Source: a virus. From it: a DNA stretch of 64,000 nucleotides. The stretch lies in the IMG/VR virus record IMGVR_UViG_3300010399_000040, positions 1 to 64,000 of that record; one strand, given 5' to 3'. Below the pieces are notes generated by a model. That model was not told the DNA's origin and did no database searches. It worked only from the letters and a program-made list of their open reading frames with translations. Numbering within the stretch: the first letter of the stretch is position 1; the number at the start of each line of letters is the position of its first letter. The position numbers and the translations under genes are program-made. This document shows, one piece after another, positions 5,036 through 11,210 of the stretch.

Positions 5036-5441
5036 CGCCGGAAGTCAGTTCGGTACATCCGAAGCACGCGAGGCCGACGACGTCAACGACGTACGGACCG
5101 ACGCCCGGTAGGTCGCGCAAGTCCTTCCACGTGTCGGTGAGGAACACCTGCGAGAAGCGGACGAGTCGCGTCGCGCGAGTGTGTTGGAAGCCGAGTGGTC
5201 GGAGCAGATCAGCGAGCTCGCGGCGGTCAGCCTTCGCGAGCGACGGAGGGTCGGGGTAGCGAGCGAGGAGCTTCGCGAGCACCGGTTGCATCGCTACGCG
5301 CCGCGTGCGGTTCAGCAGAATGCTCGCGACGCACACGCGCCACGGGCATCCGCCGAGCCCACACTGTATAGGGACGGCGTCGAAGTCCAGCTCGTCCGTC
5401 GTAGCGAGCGTCAGCACGCGCTCGCGGGGCAGAGGTATCAC
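4968..5441 (-). CDS. HhH-GPD family DNA glycosylase (endonuclease III-like)
   Basis: 157 aa. It starts at a GTG at 5441, preceded by AAGGAG and overlapping the SWIM gene stop (GTGA). It shows the core of the endonuclease III/MBD4 superfamily: VASILLNRTRRVAMQPVLAKLL (helix with the conserved Q/N-T region), LRPLGFQHTRATRLV, and the helix-hairpin-helix DLPGVGPYVVDVVGLACFG, the L-PGVG-x-Y-x-A element. The catalytic Asp normally follows about 18 residues after the HhH; here SGDGAL is the only candidate, so activity is uncertain. It lacks an obvious FeS cluster. Likely base-excision repair or removal of altered bases. Confidence 0.8.
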   Translation of the reverse strand: MIPLPRERVLTLATTDELDFDAVPIQCGLGGCPWRVCVASILLNRTRRVAMQPVLAKLLARYPDPPSLAKADRRELADLLRPLGFQHTRATRLVRFSQVFLTDTWKDLRDLPGVGPYVVDVVGLACFGCTELTSGDGALVEHARRLRAEGAFACGRD

Positions 5442-5863
5442 CGTAGCTCCTTCAGCACTTGGAGGTGCTTGCACGCGCCGTTGGTCTTGAACTGCCAGCA
5501 GGAGCACGCACCGCCGACGACAGTGTGCTCCTCCGCGTCGTCGTGGGTGCCGATCACGCTCCAAGTGTCGGGTCCTACCTTGCAGACAGCGAAGGTCTGC
5601 GCGTTACACACCTTCAGCACGCGCCGACCCTCGACCACGTCGAGGATCACTTTGCGCTGTAGCGGCGTCAGCTGCGCTGCCTTCTTCGCTATCCTGTGGA
5701 GCTTCGGCGGCTTCGGCTTCCTCGGTGGCACCGGCACCTCGCCGAGGTAGGAGTTCGCGTTGACTCTCGCGAGCAACTCCCCGATCGTCTCCTTCGGCTT
5801 GTGCCCTGTCGTGTAACTGCTAGCGAGCGTCCTACCTTCGCTGCTCGGGTCGTGGTTAGCCAT
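5438..5863 (-). CDS. SWIM zinc-finger protein
   Basis: 141 aa starting at the ATG at 5863; the longer upstream reading would begin inside the hammerhead ribozyme. The C-terminus has a SWIM finger, CSCWQFKTNGACKHL (CxC...CxH). SWIM domains bind DNA or proteins and are common in phage accessory genes. The N-terminal half is basic and proline-rich (VPVPPRKPKPPKLHR). The ribozyme at 5881-5941 lies directly upstream, so this cistron would get a processed 5' end. The gene is coupled to the downstream glycosylase. Confidence 0.78.
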   Translation of the reverse strand: MANHDPSSEGRTLASSYTTGHKPKETIGELLARVNANSYLGEVPVPPRKPKPPKLHRIAKKAAQLTPLQRKVILDVVEGRRVLKVCNAQTFAVCKVGPDTWSVIGTHDDAEEHTVVGGACSCWQFKTNGACKHLQVLKELR

Positions 5864-5880
5864 CGCGACGTCTCTCAGAG

Positions 5881-5941
5881 CGACCTGGCTCATCAGCGTG
5901 CGGCGGTCAGCACGCACAGACGCCCTTGCGGGCGTTTCGCC
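5881..5941 (-). ncRNA. Type II hammerhead ribozyme HH1
   Basis: Read on the minus strand: stem II GGC, GAAA, then C-GCCC-GCAA-GGGC-G (stem III), GUC, stem I UGUGCG/CGCACG, CUGAUGA, stem II GCC. All invariant core bases are present. The loop of stem I contains GACC, complementary to GGUC just after stem II (5881-5886). The upstream gene's TGA (5942-5944) abuts stem II. Predicted cleavage is 3' of the C opposite 5919. Confidence 0.94.
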
Positions 5942-6847
5942 TCACTTGACAATCGCAGGTATCGCAGCCTTCGCGTGGTAGTTAAGCGAGGTCGGCTCCT
6001 CCTTGCGCCATGCGTTCCACGCGTGGAGGCACTTAACGTACATCTCACGGGAGGCGACAATCTTACGTTCTATTCCGGATCGCCTCGTCATTGAAGCTCT
6101 TACGAGGAACCGTGCGAGCACCCTCGTCGGACACATGTTGTCCGGCGCAGACTCGTCCTTCACTTTCGCCCAGAACTCCGTCGCAGCTCCTCGCGTCGAA
6201 GAGCGATCGAAGGTCGCCATCATCGCGCGCACTACAGGTTCGCGGAGCATATGCTTCGCTGGAGACATAGCAGACTTCGTGTCGCTGCTGCCGCAGAGCT
6301 TCTTCAGCCAGAGGCAGAAATCCTGACGCTCGATGAGCTGCTCAGCTCTCTCCGCGTGGGGCACGCGCGCTATCTCTGCATCAGACCACTTCAAGTTAGC
6401 TGCCGCCGACACCGTGAGGTTGATGTACTTCGTACCGACGTCTTTCAGCTCCGGGATCGTAGCAGCGAACGACAGGTTGACGTCGCTATGCGTCCTGCTG
6501 GACAAGTTGCTGTCGTAAGTGGCGTACAACATAGCCGCGTCGTTCAACGTGTCGCACTTCCACCGCTCCAGGATAACGTAGAAATCAAGAGGGAGCTTCT
6601 CCTGTGAGCCCAGCATAACTGACGTGTGCTTGCCGTTCACTCGGTACGTGCAGTTAGTCTCCTTGCAGAGCACCGACGCCCACGTGACAGGGCGAAAGTT
6701 TCCGTCCTTCAAGATGCGGCGGTACACCAGCAACCGTCGTTCGCTCAACGGACGATCGTGCGGCGCCGGTTCCATCTCCACGAACTCCTTGACCAGCGCC
6801 TGCGTAGGCAATATCGTCCTCGGTTTCTCCATCTGCGACCATGCCAT
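5942..6847 (-). CDS. ParB-N/DGQHR-like hypothetical protein
   Basis: 301 aa, soluble. The region FRPVTWASVLCKETNCTYRVNGKHTSVML resembles the ParB-like or DGQHR pattern (a conserved N-G-x-H-(R/T) after a strand), a fold used by nucleotide-binding and DNA-associated proteins in phages. The rest is helical and unassigned. The start ATG follows GAGGTAG by six bases. It lies between two hammerhead ribozymes, HH2 upstream and HH1 directly at its stop, so its mRNA would be cut out as a single cistron. Function unknown. Confidence 0.72.
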   Translation of the reverse strand: MAWSQMEKPRTILPTQALVKEFVEMEPAPHDRPLSERRLLVYRRILKDGNFRPVTWASVLCKETNCTYRVNGKHTSVMLGSQEKLPLDFYVILERWKCDTLNDAAMLYATYDSNLSSRTHSDVNLSFAATIPELKDVGTKYINLTVSAAANLKWSDAEIARVPHAERAEQLIERQDFCLWLKKLCGSSDTKSAMSPAKHMLREPVVRAMMATFDRSSTRGAATEFWAKVKDESAPDNMCPTRVLARFLVRASMTRRSGIERKIVASREMYVKCLHAWNAWRKEEPTSLNYHAKAAIPAIVK

Positions 6848-6867
6848 TGCAATCTACCTCTGCGAGG

Positions 6868-6927
6868 GAACTGCCTCCTCAGCAGCGAGAGTTCATCCTC
6901 GCTGGACGCCCTTTCGGGCGTTTCGGC
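6868..6927 (-). ncRNA. Type II hammerhead ribozyme HH2
   Basis: Minus strand: stem II GCC, GAAA, C-GCCC-GAAA-GGGC-G (stem III), GUC, 7-bp stem I CAGCGAG/CTCGCTG with loop GATGAACT, CTGAGGA, stem II GGC, then AGTTC. Loop GAACU is perfectly complementary to the 3' AGUUC (6868-6872). The upstream stop TGA (6928-6930) is immediately 5' of stem II. Predicted cleavage is after the C opposite 6905. Confidence 0.95.
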
Positions 6928-7122
6928 TCACTCCTCGTCGGTGTCCTCCGTCACTACCATCTCGTTGATGGACTCCCTCAACTGCACGACCTCATAGTCG
7001 TCGATGTTTGGCTCGCCGTCGAACTCGCTCAACTTATCGTTGAGAGCATCGTTCGCGGCGTCCTCCGTGTCGTAACTGCCGTACACGCAGCAGGCGCTCA
7101 CGTGGTTGATGCCGTACTTCAT
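6928..7122 (-). CDS. Acidic small hypothetical protein
   Basis: 64 aa from the ATG at 7122, nine bases after GGAGG; an ATG at 7131 directly abuts the GGAGG and is a poor start. The sequence is acidic (ending VVTEDTDEE) with a short basic/aromatic N-terminus (MKYGINHVSACCVYGSYDTE). No family recognised. Its stop leads directly into ribozyme HH2. The gap upstream (7123-7169) carries no ribozyme, unlike most junctions of this operon. Confidence 0.65.
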   Translation of the reverse strand: MKYGINHVSACCVYGSYDTEDAANDALNDKLSEFDGEPNIDDYEVVQLRESINEMVVTEDTDEE

Positions 7123-7169
7123 CGCGATCATCCTCCGGGGTTAAGATACTGTCTCTTATATGCGAAAGT

Positions 7170-7775
7170 CTACCTCACACCTCCGATCAGCTGAGCCACG
7201 ATCCGGTCGGCGCACACAGGGCCGATGCCACGTGTGACGCTCTCCGGCGTAGTCAGAGGCCGACCGCAGCATCCGCATCGGCCCTCGTGGTGTATCCTGA
7301 AACCGTTCGCTTCGATTACGTCGAGTTCGTCGGCGAACAGACGCTTCAGCACCTTGTTGAGCAACTTCACAGGGAAGCTGTCGAGGGAGTAGCTGCTCCT
7401 CCCAGTGACTCTGACTTGGCCGTCGACCAACTTGCCGACGTACGTGTAGTCGGCCGTGTTGTTGGGGCCCGTCAAAAGCTTTACGAAGTAGGCCACTGGC
7501 CAGTTACCGTTCGCCTCCACGCGTTGCGCCCTGTAGGTGTAGTGTCGTGCTTCCGTCGCGCGGTAGCGCTCCGGTATCTCGACGGTGAAGATAGCGTCAC
7601 CAGCTAGGAGCCAGCTACTGGAGAGTCGAAAGCTTTCGGTTGAGCTCTCTGGCCTCGGCGTGGGCTCGCTGACGGTCTCCTGTGACGAAGACGACGTCGA
7701 ACCATCCGTCAGCGCAGACGAACCCGACGAAGAACGCTCTTTCGTCTGGGCATACAACGACTTGGTACACGACAT
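7170..7775 (-). CDS. DUF6011-like zinc-binding protein
   Basis: 201 aa. The C-terminus HHEGRCGCCGRPLTTPESVTRGIGPVCADRI matches the DUF6011 pattern CxxCGRxL-(T/S)-x-PES-x-x-GIGPxC, a four-Cys zinc site widespread in actinobacterial and phage proteins of unknown role. Residues about 15-50 are a Ser/Thr-rich low-complexity linker. A strong ribosome site (GGAAGAGAG) precedes the ATG at 7775. HH3 lies in its 5' untranslated region. Confidence 0.75.
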   Translation of the reverse strand: MSCTKSLYAQTKERSSSGSSALTDGSTSSSSQETVSEPTPRPESSTESFRLSSSWLLAGDAIFTVEIPERYRATEARHYTYRAQRVEANGNWPVAYFVKLLTGPNNTADYTYVGKLVDGQVRVTGRSSYSLDSFPVKLLNKVLKRLFADELDVIEANGFRIHHEGRCGCCGRPLTTPESVTRGIGPVCADRIVAQLIGGVR

Positions 7776-7795
7776 GGTACTCTCTTCCAGCGAGG

Positions 7796-7855
7796 GAACT
7801 GCCTCATCAGTGCGGAGAGTTCATCCTCCGCAAACGCCCGTGAGGGCGTTTCGGC
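7796..7855 (-). ncRNA. Type II hammerhead ribozyme HH3
   Basis: Minus strand: GCC, GAAA, C-GCCC-TCAC-GGGC-G, GUU, 7-bp stem I TGCGGAG/CTCCGCA with loop GATGAACT, CTGATGA, GGC, AGTTC. The cleavage triplet is GUU rather than GUC, allowed by the NUH rule but usually slower. Loop GAACU pairs with AGUUC at 7796-7800. The upstream stop TGA (7856-7858) touches stem II. Confidence 0.93.
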
Positions 7856-8065
7856 TCAAGTTTTTATTGTCGATTCCAACAAGAAGCCTATTGAACTCTT
7901 CTTCGTCCGCTCCAGACACTTGTCACACACTGCCAGGCCGCTACCCCTTGGTCCGCCTACATTCTCGCCGCCGAACTCAAATCCAGCTGTGAAAGGTTCA
8001 TCGCAAAAATCACACATAGGCCATTCATCTTTGACAGATAGCCTCCGTATGCGTCGAATCTGCAT
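7856..8065 (-). CDS. Small zinc-finger-like protein
   Basis: 69 aa with two Cys pairs, CDFCDEPF at about residue 18 and VCDKCLERT at about residue 46, a treble-clef or zinc-ribbon arrangement. A glycine-rich turn (GGENVGGPRGSG) separates them. No specific family. Its first codons overlap the end of the upstream gene 8025-8213 (no intergenic ribozyme there), while its stop leads straight into HH3. Confidence 0.68.
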   Translation of the reverse strand: MQIRRIRRLSVKDEWPMCDFCDEPFTAGFEFGGENVGGPRGSGLAVCDKCLERTKKSSIGFLLESTIKT

Positions 8066-8213
8066 GCTTCACCTCCTCTCCTGTGAGGGTATATGTCGGA
8101 GCTTCCTCTCCTTCCACCCACGTGTAGAAGTTCGGTAGGTTGTTCATCCGCAGGAACTCCTGCCGCTCCTCGAACGGCAGGAGTTCCGCGATCTTCTCAA
8201 GCTCGGTCCGCAT
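8025..8213 (-). CDS. Small hypothetical protein
   Basis: 62 aa from the ATG at 8213, which lies inside the last codons of the upstream gene; a GAGGCGGTGG stretch serves as ribosome site. The N-terminal half (MRTELEKIAELLPFEERQEFLRM) is an amphipathic helix. No family recognised. It overlaps both neighbours, so the trio 8406-7856 is one coupled unit between ribozymes HH4 and HH3. Confidence 0.6.
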   Translation of the reverse strand: MRTELEKIAELLPFEERQEFLRMNNLPNFYTWVEGEEAPTYTLTGEEVKHADSTHTEAICQR

Positions 8214-8406
8214 TCGCCACCGCCTCGTGGAACTCGCCACGGTAGTAGGCCGCCACCACCTCGTTCAAGGCGTCAGCTACCATCGCAGCGACGTCGCCCA
8301 ACGGAACGTTGCCTCCGCCGGCGTCAGCTTGGTCCACTTCCAACTCGCCGGAGACGATTAGCGTCCTATCCGGCCTCATGGAAGCAGTGAAAGGTCTCGG
8401 GTACAC
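8197..8406 (-). CDS. Small hypothetical protein
   Basis: 69 aa starting with GTG at 8406, six bases after GAGGAGA. Acidic, with a likely beta strand (DRTLIVSGELEVD) and a helix (VAAMVADALNEVVAAYYRG). Unassigned. It is the first cistron after ribozyme HH4 and overlaps the next gene's ATG. Confidence 0.6.
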   Translation of the reverse strand: MYPRPFTASMRPDRTLIVSGELEVDQADAGGGNVPLGDVAAMVADALNEVVAAYYRGEFHEAVANADRA

Positions 8407-8425
8407 ATTGCTCTCCTCATGTTGA

Positions 8426-8493
8426 GGGGACTGCCTCATCAGTCGGAAGCATTTCAAGCTTCCGAAACTTGGAGCAGAGCTCCAAGTTTCGGC
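8426..8493 (-). ncRNA. Type II hammerhead ribozyme HH4 (variant)
   Basis: Minus strand: GCC, GAAA, long stem III C-TTGGAG...CTCCAA-G, GUU, 8-bp stem I TCGGAAGC/GCTTCCGA, CTGATGA, GGC. The core is complete and stems III and I are longer than in the other copies. The stem I loop (TTGAAAT) does not match the downstream AGTCCC, so the loop-to-flank pairing seen in the other seven is missing. The upstream stop TGA (8495-8497) is one base from stem II. Confidence 0.88.
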
Positions 8494-8494
8494 G

Positions 8495-8905
8495 TCAGAT
8501 CGCGAGAATCTGCTTGAACTTCTTAATCGTGTCCATGTGAGGATTGCGATAGAGCACGTAATCACCGTCTCCGACCTTGACGAGCAGATCGCGTTCGTAC
8601 TCACAGCCCCGCCACGACCCGTGCAGCCAACCGACGACGTTCTTGTTCATCCACGCGCTGAACGAAGGTTTACTCGCCAACTCTTGGGCTTCCTGCCGCT
8701 CTTCCTCAGTTGCACCACTGGGAGTCGAGTACTTCGCTTCGATGCTCTTGAGACGTTGCTCCTCAACTGGCGAACGGAGAGCGACTGGAATGAGCGCCTG
8801 CAGATCGCTGAAAGTGCCGATCGACCTCATCTGCTTGAGGATGCTCTTGGTGAGCTTACAGGTCCGCAACTCCGCTTCGCCAGTCCGGACAATGACATCT
8901 GCCAT
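8495..8905 (-). CDS. Hypothetical protein
   Basis: 136 aa from the ATG at 8905 after AAGGAG. Mostly helical with many charged residues; the C-terminal part GWLHGSWRGCEYERDLLVKVGDGDYVLYRN looks like a small beta domain. No family recognised. Its first residues MADVIVRTG resemble the start of 9940-10386 (MADVKTAP), but not beyond four residues. HH4 follows its stop. Confidence 0.62.
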   Translation of the reverse strand: MADVIVRTGEAELRTCKLTKSILKQMRSIGTFSDLQALIPVALRSPVEEQRLKSIEAKYSTPSGATEEERQEAQELASKPSFSAWMNKNVVGWLHGSWRGCEYERDLLVKVGDGDYVLYRNPHMDTIKKFKQILAI

Positions 8906-8994
8906 GGTAAAACTCCTTGTTGAGCTCTGCTCGGATTGAGTCAGTAGCTCGTGTAGTGCTGGCTCCGGGCTCCAGCACAGCGCGAGACACTGCG

Positions 8995-9213
8995 TCAGTG
9001 CCACCAGCACACCTCGCAGATCGGGCACACGAGGGTGTGACCATGCTGCGTGATGACTACCTTCTCATGGGCGTCGTCGTACCTCCAGCACTTCGGGCAC
9101 TCGTGACCTGGGTCGTGACCCAAATCAGCGAGTCGCCGACCAGACTCAGTGAACATCGCGCAGTGGAACTTGACCCTGTCGCACAGGGCGGGTAGAGAGT
9201 CCATCTCTTTCAT
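8995..9213 (-). CDS. Zinc-ribbon-like small protein
   Basis: 72 aa. Cys pairs HECPKCWRYDD and LVCPICEVCWWH form a probable zinc ribbon (CxxC...CxxC). No catalytic motif. The 89-base gap downstream (8906-8994) has two simple hairpins (CACTG/CAGTG and GTGCTGG/CCAGCAC) but no ribozyme core. HH5 lies directly upstream. Confidence 0.65.
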   Translation of the reverse strand: MKEMDSLPALCDRVKFHCAMFTESGRRLADLGHDPGHECPKCWRYDDAHEKVVITQHGHTLVCPICEVCWWH

Positions 9214-9224
9214 TCTTCGCGAGG

Positions 9225-9286
9225 GACCTGCCTCGTCAGGCGACGGAGGTCGTACCGTCGCGACACCGCTTGTGCGGTGTTTCGGC
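9225..9286 (-). ncRNA. Type II hammerhead ribozyme HH5
   Basis: Minus strand: GCC, GAAA, C-ACCGC-ACAA-GCGGT-G, GUC, 7-bp stem I GCGACGG/CCGTCGC with loop TACGACCT, CTGACGA, GGC, AGGTC. Loop GACCU pairs with AGGUC at 9225-9229. The upstream gene's stop TAG (9286-9288) shares its G with stem II, so coding sequence and ribozyme overlap by one base. Confidence 0.95.
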
Positions 9287-9855
9287 TAGAACTCACCTGT
9301 GTAATTCCTGAGCTTCATCGCATCGGCCTCTCGGCCGTTGTCGCTGAGGTAGTCGCAGTACACGTCTATCGGCAATCGTTCGTCTGGGTTGTCGAGGATC
9401 GCTTCCAAGAGAGCGTAGTGGTCGCGCCCAGCGAACGATCCGGCGTTCTTCGCTTGGGAGTAGAGTAGAAGCAACTTGAGGAGGTCCTTGCGGCACTCTT
9501 TGTCGGTCACTGAGTAGTTGTCGCAGTCGGCGTTCGCCCTCGCGACACCCGCGGCATTGAGCTGCAGTCGTACGGGAGCTAACCACTGCCTCAGTTGCGC
9601 CTCATCAAGTCGCTTAGTCTCGGCGGAAGCTAACTCGGGAAGGCGAGCTACGATGTGCATCACTGCCTCGAGCACTTGAGCGCGCCTGAACCGACGCCCC
9701 AAGAACACCGCTGTTCGGGGACCGCGGAGGTTGACGTATATCTCGACTCTGTTTCCGACGTGTATCGTTGCGCTGTAATAACCATGCGCTTCTAACCTCG
9801 CGTTCACACCTCCGGCGTTGAGCGACTGGACGACGGCGTCCAAGAAGTCCTGCAT
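9286..9855 (-). CDS. TIGR02996-like domain protein
   Basis: 189 aa from the ATG at 9855, preceded by GGAGGAAGAG; the longer reading frame starts inside ribozyme HH6. The C-terminus HYALLEAILDNPDERLPIDVYCDYLSDNGREADAMKLRN closely follows the planctomycete repeat-companion domain TIGR02996 (LL-A-I--DP-DD--R-VYADWLEE-GD--RAE-IRLQ). That domain is mostly known from Gemmata-type planctomycetes, so it supports the host assignment. The N-terminal part has a beta-rich segment (YYSATIHVGNRVEIYVNL). Function unknown. Confidence 0.75.
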   Translation of the reverse strand: MQDFLDAVVQSLNAGGVNARLEAHGYYSATIHVGNRVEIYVNLRGPRTAVFLGRRFRRAQVLEAVMHIVARLPELASAETKRLDEAQLRQWLAPVRLQLNAAGVARANADCDNYSVTDKECRKDLLKLLLLYSQAKNAGSFAGRDHYALLEAILDNPDERLPIDVYCDYLSDNGREADAMKLRNYTGEF

Positions 9856-9872
9856 GAACTCTTCCTCCGGAG

Positions 9873-9939
9873 CGACCTGGCTCATCAGCACGTGGAGGTC
9901 GTTCCACGTGGACACCGGGCTCTCACCCGGTGTTTCGCC
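9873..9939 (-). ncRNA. Type II hammerhead ribozyme HH6
   Basis: Minus strand: GGC, GAAA, C-ACCGGG-TGAGAG-CCCGGT-G, GUC, 7-bp stem I CACGTGG/CCACGTG with loop AACGACCT, CTGATGA, GCC, AGGTCG. Loop CGACCU pairs with AGGUCG at 9873-9878. Stem II is GGC/GCC, swapped relative to most copies, a compensatory change. The upstream stop TAA (9940-9942) abuts stem II. Confidence 0.95.
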
Positions 9940-10386
9940 TTACTTCGTGATACCAAGCGCTTTGAGTTGCTCCTTGACCCGCTCGGCTTCCGCCGGGTTG
10001 GTCGCGAGCAGCGTCTTGAGCATCTCGGTCACCGAATCGGCCGTCACGGCCTTCGGAGCGCGAGGCGCCTTGCCGATCTCCTCCGCAGTGCCACCGAGGT
10101 GGTGGAGCAGCGGAGTGCCGACAGTCATGAAGTTGTGACTCACGACAAAGTAGGTCTTTCCATGGAGGTCGACCTTGAACGCTCGCCGTGGCCCGCTGTC
10201 GCGCGCGCTCGCCGCCTTCACCGCCTCCTCCGAAGTGGCGAAGATCGCTGGAAGGTCCTTCCAGCTCGTTTTCTTCTCCTTCTTCGGAGCGTCACCGGCC
10301 ACCGGGACCTTCGCGTCCCCACCCTTGTGGGTGGTGGGAGCGGTCTGGGCTTTCGGGGAAGCGGGGGCCGTCTTGACATCTGCCAT
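9940..10386 (-). CDS. Hypothetical protein with Lys/Pro/Ala-rich N-terminus
   Basis: 148 aa from the ATG at 10386, seven bases after CAGGAG; the upstream part of the open frame is ribozyme. Residues 1-40 are a basic low-complexity tail (KTAPASPKAQTAPTTHKGGDAK...), then a compact domain (RRAFKVDLHGKTYFVVSHNF) and a C-terminal helix pair. The tail suggests nucleic-acid or protein binding. No family recognised. HH6 sits at its stop and HH7 upstream. Confidence 0.62.
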   Translation of the reverse strand: MADVKTAPASPKAQTAPTTHKGGDAKVPVAGDAPKKEKKTSWKDLPAIFATSEEAVKAASARDSGPRRAFKVDLHGKTYFVVSHNFMTVGTPLLHHLGGTAEEIGKAPRAPKAVTADSVTEMLKTLLATNPAEAERVKEQLKALGITK

Positions 10387-10440
10387 TGTAGAGCTCCTGA
10401 ACGCAGCTTCAGTGGGTGCTGCTGGACCCGTACCGAGGAA

Positions 10441-10505
10441 AACCTGCCTCGTCAGAGTGGGTAGGTTAACTCCCACCTACACTGCACTATATGCAGTGTT
10501 TCGGC
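10441..10505 (-). ncRNA. Type II hammerhead ribozyme HH7
   Basis: Minus strand: GCC, GAAA, C-ACTGCA-TATA-GTGCAGTG region as stem III, GUA, stem I GGTGGG/CCCACT (closing G-U pair), loop AGTTAACCTA, CTGACGA, GGC, AGGTT. The cleavage triplet is GUA. Loop AACCU pairs with AGGUU at 10441-10445, a third covarying sequence. The upstream stop lies at 10511-10513, five bases before stem II. Confidence 0.92.
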
Positions 10506-10510
10506 TCGCA

Positions 10511-10729
10511 TCACTTGATCGAGAACTCCTTAGCCGTCTCCTCGCGGTACTTCTTGTAGAGGATGGAGTACGACGGGGAGTAGTGGCAGCTCAACTCGGG
10601 GAACACTTCGCGATCGATGTCACGGAAAGTCGCGCCTTCGAGTCGCTTCTGAGCGACCTCGTCGGTCAAGTACTTCTGGACACCGCTAGGGAGCTTGTTG
10701 AAGTCGCGGAGAATGGACTTAGTCTGCAT
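10511..10729 (-). CDS. Small hypothetical protein
   Basis: 72 aa from the ATG at 10729, six bases after GAGGTG. Basic and helical: ILRDFNKLPSGVQKYLTDEVAQKRLEGATFRDIDREVFPE, which could be a small helix-turn-helix-like DNA-binding protein, but no family is clear. It lies between HH8 and HH7. Confidence 0.6.
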   Translation of the reverse strand: MQTKSILRDFNKLPSGVQKYLTDEVAQKRLEGATFRDIDREVFPELSCHYSPSYSILYKKYREETAKEFSIK

Positions 10730-10756
10730 AGAGCACCTCGTGTATTTGAGTGAGAG

Positions 10757-10818
10757 GAACTGCCTCATCAGTGCGGAGAGTTCAACCTCCGCAGAGCAGT
10801 CACGAGACTGCTTTCGGC
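10757..10818 (-). ncRNA. Type II hammerhead ribozyme HH8
   Basis: Minus strand: GCC, GAAA, GCAGTC-TCGT-GACTGC as stem III, CUC, 7-bp stem I TGCGGAG/CTCCGCA with loop GTTGAACT, CTGATGA, GGC, AGTTC. The first full pair of stem III is G-C where the other copies have C-G, and the triplet becomes CUC, so base pairing is kept. Loop GAACU pairs with AGUUC at 10757-10761. It is the most promoter-proximal ribozyme. Confidence 0.94.
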
Positions 10819-11035: not shown

Positions 11036-11063
11036 ATCATAGCAGTGAAAGTTTCAGAGTCAA
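11036..11063 (-). promoter_or_regulatory. Sigma70-like promoter for the ribozyme operon
   Basis: Minus strand TTGACT (11063-11058), 16-base spacer, TATGAT (11041-11036). It points leftward into the genes punctuated by hammerhead ribozymes. The same -35 sequence and 16-base spacing recur at 27347-27374. Confidence 0.65.
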
Positions 11064-11106
11064 CAGTTATTTTTAAGTCTTGACTTGCAAACGACTTAGG
11101 TCTCGT

Positions 11107-11210
11107 TCTCCAGGTTCAATCCTGGTACCGCCGATCCGGGGATGATATAAACCCCGACCCGCCGGAGATATCAGTCCATGGATCATCCAGGGAGAACTGG
11201 GATTGATACC
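11107..11210 (+). repeat. Structured intergenic element, copy A
   Basis: Read on the plus strand, three hairpins: CCAGG-TTCAAT-CCTGG, GGGG-ATGATATAAA-CCCC and CCATGG-ATCAT-CCAGGG, followed by GAGAACTGGGATTGA. Blocks ACCGCCGA, GGATGAT, GACCCG and AGAACTGGGAT match in the same order the minus-strand element at 60777-60884. The rest of the gap 10837-11229 holds a promoter and a possible leader peptide; no other gene is visible. The GGTTCAATCC segment mimics a tRNA T arm but the loop has only six bases and no tRNA can be built. Confidence 0.6.

Follow-up and report, generated by a model that had tools for sequence, protein, structure and literature searches.

Why should a single phage operon carry eight hammerhead ribozymes (HHs), one after another among its small genes? 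The question is raised by the DNA analysed here, a window of 64.0 of the 67.4 kb of IMG/VR virus record IMGVR_UViG_3300010399_000040, which derives from an uncultured virus. The phage origin proposed in a first-pass annotation of this DNA is borne out by its genes: the minus strand encodes a phage DNA polymerase, a primase and a helicase between 24 and 15 kb, and portal and head genes are on the plus strand. Downstream of the replication genes, also on the minus strand, are about 12 small genes (termed gA to gL), nearly all of them outside known families, and the hammerheads are located among these. The answer that we favour, at a probability of about 0.68, is that the operon RNA would be split by co-transcriptional self-cleavage, with insulation of the individual messages and a common 5′ leader as the likely benefit.

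To locate the ribozymes, both strands of the window were scanned for a motif of GAAA, stem II and CTGANGA. The scan revealed exactly eight full type II HH cores, all on the minus strand from 10.82 to 5.88 kb and at the very places named in the first-pass annotation, and none on the plus strand. The first G of GAAA lies at 10815, 10502, 9936, 9283, 8490, 7852, 6924 and 5938, respectively. In transcriptional order, the copies are HH1 (10755-10818, predicted cut after C10794), HH2 (10439-10505, after A10478), HH3 (9872-9939, after C9911), HH4 (9223-9286, after C9262), HH5 (8426-8493, after U8466), HH6 (7794-7855, after U7833), HH7 (6866-6927, after C6905) and HH8 (5880-5941, after C5919). The catalytic core, comprising GAAA, the A15.1-U16.1 pair, NUH and CUGANGA, is complete in each of them, and H17 is C in five copies, U in two and A in one. 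By comparison, 60 order-1 Markov resamplings yielded 0 full motifs per 64-kb strand.

The first-pass annotation had suggested a check against Rfam covariance models and would have taken sub-threshold scores for most copies as a refutation; the outcome is even, with four of the eight above the cut-off. With RF02276 (Hammerhead_II), HH6, HH1, HH7 and HH4 score above the gathering score (47, 44.4, 43.2 and 37.7 bits), whereas HH3, HH8 and HH5 fall below it (34.5, 34.2 and 26.8 bits, E ≤ 8.2e-5) and HH2 is missed. A second hammerhead family, RF00008, gave no match, but its control likewise matched nowhere, which makes this negative uninformative. In a model built from the eight copies, and thus trained on the same sequences, they score 56-78.6 bits, and the next match in the window reaches 10. 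In the alignment of the copies, 95.4% of the cells are paired and two-sided changes occur at 12 of the 19 pairs, even with stem I of HH5 one column off and hence scored as partly unpaired. The covariation score is 0.697, compared to 0.203 in shuffled alignments, none of 500 of which reaches the observed value; structures slid along the alignment attain at most 0.109, with pairing dropping to about 30%-40%. Stems I, II and III all covary between copies, stems I and III being closed by loops and stem II open, which is the type II topology originally claimed. Because of this covariation test, the structural identity is settled despite the divided Rfam outcome, and the eight copies are confirmed, as far as their predicted fold is concerned, as genuine type II hammerheads.

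Type II hammerheads with a pseudoknot between loop I and the 3′ tail were defined by Perreault et al. 2011 (PMC3088659), and the pseudoknot is present in most, not all, published members. In the window it is found in seven of the eight copies, HH5 being the exception, with four to six Watson-Crick pairs (GAACT/AGTTC, GACC(T)/(A)GGTC or AACCT/AGGTT) that covary between copies; the observed matching of loop and tail within the same copy was reached by 8 of 5000 permutations. Among 225 HHs from viral and genome contigs, 82% have a loop-tail match of at least four pairs, versus 30% with permuted tails. We also observed that HH1 and HH6, and likewise HH7 and HH8, have one ribozyme half in common, as if recombined within the core.

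Placement and predicted processing of the operon RNA

The first-pass annotation placed the ribozymes in eight intergenic gaps. Seven of them do lie between genes; HH1 is located in the leader, ahead of gA, where no gene ends. Seven of the eight copies begin from 5 nucleotides (nt) after to 1 nt inside the upstream stop codon, the first base of HH4 being the last base of the TAG of gC. A survey of 190 phage HHs, in which a stop codon was counted if it belonged to a nearby frame of at least 50 codons, revealed such a stop at 165 of them (87%), compared to 29% of random positions, and 132 of these 165 fall in the same -5 to +1 range as the window copies. On the other side, CTGANGA is succeeded by a ribosome-binding site and a start codon, at a median distance of 28 nt. 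This stop codon-hammerhead-ribosome-binding site arrangement, tight across about 190 phage HHs, is added by the present analysis. The gD/gE and gI/gJ gaps and the gF-gG-gH overlaps are devoid of HHs, and therefore the predicted products carry one to three genes rather than a single gene each.

In the processing model, each copy would fold as RNA polymerase passes and cut its own RNA 3′ of NUH. The predicted cuts would yield seven internal RNAs, flanked by a leader and by a distal RNA beginning with gL. By arithmetic on the sequence, the internal RNAs would measure 316 (gA), 567 (gB), 649 (gC), 796 (gD-gE), 633 (gF-gG-gH), 928 (gI-gJ) and 986 nt (gK), four of them with one gene and three with two or three. 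The upstream products would close with the stem III hairpin and a 2′,3′-cyclic phosphate, in seven cases right after a stop codon, and the downstream products would open with a 5′-OH stem I hairpin, the start codon following after a few tens of bases. Such a 5′-OH hairpin end should resist 5′-monophosphate-dependent decay (RNase E/J). A likely benefit would be an insulated RNA stability for each early gene; another would be the same 5′-OH, hairpin-capped leader on every message. The position of HH1 fits 5′-end trimming as well as cistron splitting, so the purpose would not merely be the separation of cistrons. Precedent for processing comes from tandem prophage arrays, which are cleaved in vitro; for the triple array of Agrobacterium tumefaciens, cleavage was shown both in vitro and in E. 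coli (PMC3088659).

Several points weigh against this model. The HH-free junctions mean that single-gene processing is not systematic, and HH5 lacks the pseudoknot thought to stabilize the active fold. Terminating ribosomes could cover a hammerhead that adjoins a stop codon, so that cleavage might be partial. The promoter call upstream of the array is weak: a sigma-70-like TTGACT-16-TATGAT on the minus strand (11036-11063; 10 of 12 consensus positions) lies about 240 nt before HH1, and it serves as a pointer only, as such sites are overall not commoner in the scan than in shuffled sequence. Moreover, the evidence for the window phage is at the level of DNA sequence, and Perreault et al. 2011 leave the biological purpose open (PMC3088659).

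Hammerhead arrays in other phages

The first-pass annotation was aware of no earlier account of such an operon, a claim of novelty that does not hold. Clustered HHs flanking single genes in prophages were described by Perreault et al. 2011, who proposed the same processing (PMC3088659). Their clusters, including a triple array round ardA in Agrobacterium tumefaciens and those of Azorhizobium caulinodans and Clostridium scindens, resemble the window in that phage DNA carries several HHs, placed on either side of single genes or of short blocks of genes. In contrast, the arrays tested were fragments of about 2 kb and the largest one named is triple, compared to eight copies in the window, which itself belongs to an uncultured virus known from its sequence only. 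The HHphage ribozyme of haloviruses HF1 and HF2 also stands ahead of an early phage gene, and there the mapped 5′ end of the transcript is no more than three nucleotides from the cleavage site; unlike the window array, this ribozyme is a lone variant copy and belongs to an archaeal virus (PMC3088659). A 2017 review gives the same account of the clusters and leaves their roles open (PMC6155905), and a 2023 paper reports an enrichment of ribozymes in the vicinity of other ribozymes and of Mu-like phage genes (PMC10085705). In a paper on aminoglycosides and phages, hammerheads appear only as known aminoglycoside binders. No description of arrays of eight or more HHs was found in the open-access literature. 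By its layout, with HHs on the coding strand and one to three genes between neighbours, the window array appears to be of the clustered phage type. The observation and the structure are thus right and the mechanism is plausible and was proposed earlier, whereas the novelty was overstated.

Nor is the scale of the array unique, as seven to nine copies occur in other viral records and eight, nine and 11 in cultured Streptomyces phages. The motif scan of IMG/VR gave at least 119 stretches, and the first 53 records (L008-L060) were examined for copy number: among the matches listed, 10 of the 53 carry at least three type II HHs and 3 carry at least seven. Nine copies are found in G007 (L045) and eight each in G002, G005 and G006. 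Like the window, these four have all of their eight to nine type II HHs on one strand, in a stretch of roughly 5-7 kb; they differ from it in gene content, and a CCTC tail seen in the window is missing from most of their copies.

For one array from the viral records, named phage relatives exist. RF02276 matches eight sites in Amethyst (MF766044), nine in Spernnie (MT701594) and 11 in Alvy (MN234208), in each case all on one strand. These are Streptomyces phages of the subfamily Arquatrovirinae, and those HHs that were compared with an independent annotation fall in intergenic gaps; the gene tables read for these phages contain no hammerhead annotation. Their genes differ from those of the window, their stem II is mostly GGC/GCC, and a search of the phage collection detected no DNA similarity between them and the window operon. 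The DNA search of that collection also found no close relatives of the window phage. When viral contigs were scanned at the protein level, gK, gI and the DNA polymerase gave no relatives, and the primase gave only two, at 29%-34%. As no close relatives of the window phage were found in these searches, junction conservation was examined in the Streptomyces phages.

In six related Streptomyces phages, an HH lies directly upstream of an Ocr-like antirestriction gene (L166 at 8506, L167 at 5777, L168 at 5117, L021 at 7169, L108 at 3929 and L103 at about 4140 on the reverse strand), with stems I and III changed in sequence yet still paired. It sits just past a conserved promoter-like TGTGATACTGT, a putative promoter, so that here, as with HH1, remodelling of the 5′ end may be the main effect of the HH. 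This pairing parallels the association of HHs with ardA in Agrobacterium and Legionella (PMC3088659). Two of these phages also have tandem HHs in one intergenic gap (L166, 4751-4870; L167, 1485-1609), which would free a fragment of about 60-70 nt.

Alternative roles of the hammerheads

Self-cleavage might also occur while the main value of the HHs is evolutionary, the conserved cores acting as exchange points for early-gene cassettes. Each half of an HH would then move with its adjoining gene, and RNA processing would be a tolerated by-product or would do no more than uncouple a newly joined gene from those beside it. We consider this unlikely as the principal role, though it finds some footing in the comparisons. 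Stem I is at least 85% alike in 69 HH pairs, of which 33 lack any detectably homologous neighbour gene and 18 have only one. The HH at L021:4131 is identical in stem I to L103:6460 and L108:1067, and the genes downstream are homologous, whereas its stem III differs and its upstream gene is unrelated. Within the window, HH1 and HH6 are alike in stem I (95%) and not in stem III (39%), and HH7 and HH8 in stem III (94%) and not in stem I (41%). As to halves moving with neighbour genes, however, the likeness of stem I is suggestive only: short GC-rich hairpins may converge, likeness of stem III is by itself uninformative (161 pairs), and many pairs are not independent, being closely related HHs of one Streptomyces phage group. 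Furthermore, the compensatory upkeep of core and all helices speaks for selection acting on folding or on cleavage, and an exchange point would have no need of this.

The fusion of stem II to the stop codon, seen in the window as well as in the majority of other phage HHs, is what might be expected if the ribosome ending the upstream gene covered the HH and blocked its folding, so that cleavage, and with it the fate of both RNAs, would report how heavily the upstream gene is translated. A terminating ribosome would indeed extend past GAAA into stem III. We regard such a switch as doubtful, given that no gene ends at HH1 and that the compactness of phage genomes may alone explain the tight fit. 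Slightly less probable still is a control of downstream translation in which the CCTC tail pairs with the GAGG of ribosome-binding sites and folding or cleavage sets ribosome access. CCTC follows the pseudoknot in six of the eight window tails, compared to 7% of HHs in loci fetched without that motif and about 5% in shuffles, and the tails of HH1, HH5 and HH7 can pair with GAGG ahead of a start; yet good pairing is confined to some copies, the tail is absent from most other arrays, and the copies may have it in common by descent. Finally, inactive hammerhead-like sequences arisen by chance or decay are very improbable, for although three copies fall under the Rfam cut-off and one is missed, none is expected by chance and every copy has an intact core and covariation. 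Processing, cassette exchange, ribosome coupling and control by the CCTC tail are not mutually exclusive.

The role of phage hammerheads has been open since their discovery in 2011 and is still so in the reviews consulted. The window array bears on it with many intact, covarying copies kept in one operon at a fixed position relative to stop codon and ribosome-binding site. A tentative generalization, possible though short of probable, is that in several unrelated phage groups the HH is the standard filler between early genes, providing both a uniform 5′-OH leader and a seam for cassettes that are partly anti-defence. Such a filler would be fused to a stop codon on one side and keep a near-fixed spacing to the ribosome-binding site on the other. 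If this is true, the arrays of eight to 11 copies in cultured phages represent a general phage expression strategy rather than an oddity. Besides the arrangement described above, this study adds the recurrent HH before Ocr-like genes, signs of gene swapping round conserved HHs, and cultured phages in which these ideas are testable. As those Streptomyces phages are cultured and sequenced and carry eight to 11 copies, cleavage, mRNA ends, half-lives and fitness are directly measurable in them, and the interest of the window array is mainly as a pointer to such large arrays.

Gene content of the operon and other features

All of the small genes are on the minus strand. The first, gA (10511-10729, 72 amino acids), is an open frame after HH1 without a Pfam or PHROG match, and it is followed by gB (9940-10386, 148 amino acids) and gC (9286-9855, 189 amino acids), which have no assigned function. 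The product of gD (8995-9213, 72 amino acids) is weakly zinc-ribbon-like, with sub-threshold Pfam matches. No function is assigned to gE (8495-8905, 136 amino acids), to the open frame gF (8197-8406, 69 amino acids, GTG start at 8406) or to gH (7856-8065, 69 amino acids); gG (8025-8213, 62 amino acids) is an open frame overlapping both gF and gH. The sole clear family match among these genes is the C-terminal DUF6011 of gI (7170-7775, 201 amino acids; PF19474, 8.8e-14; phrog_20259, 3.9e-25). The small protein of gJ (6928-7122, 64 amino acids) is acidic, with a pI of 4.05, and a DNA-mimic or anti-defence role is conceivable. Next, gK (5942-6847, 301 amino acids) matches phrog_5931 weakly and has no assigned function. 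The last gene, gL (5438-5863, 141 amino acids, ATG start at 5863), has a homologue of 25% identity in the HH-bearing locus L152, with a CxC..CxH SWIM-like motif at its end.

The HH-free gD/gE gap (8906-8994, minus strand) is predicted to form a long hairpin that is stable (-32.8 kcal/mol, z -2.1) and has no Rfam match. No tRNA or further Rfam RNA was found in the window. On the plus strand at 11083-11140 there is a stretch resembling the 3′ half of a tRNA, with a canonical T arm (CCAGGTTCAATCCTGG); ARAGORN calls no tRNA here, and the stretch may be an attachment site or what is left of a tRNA.

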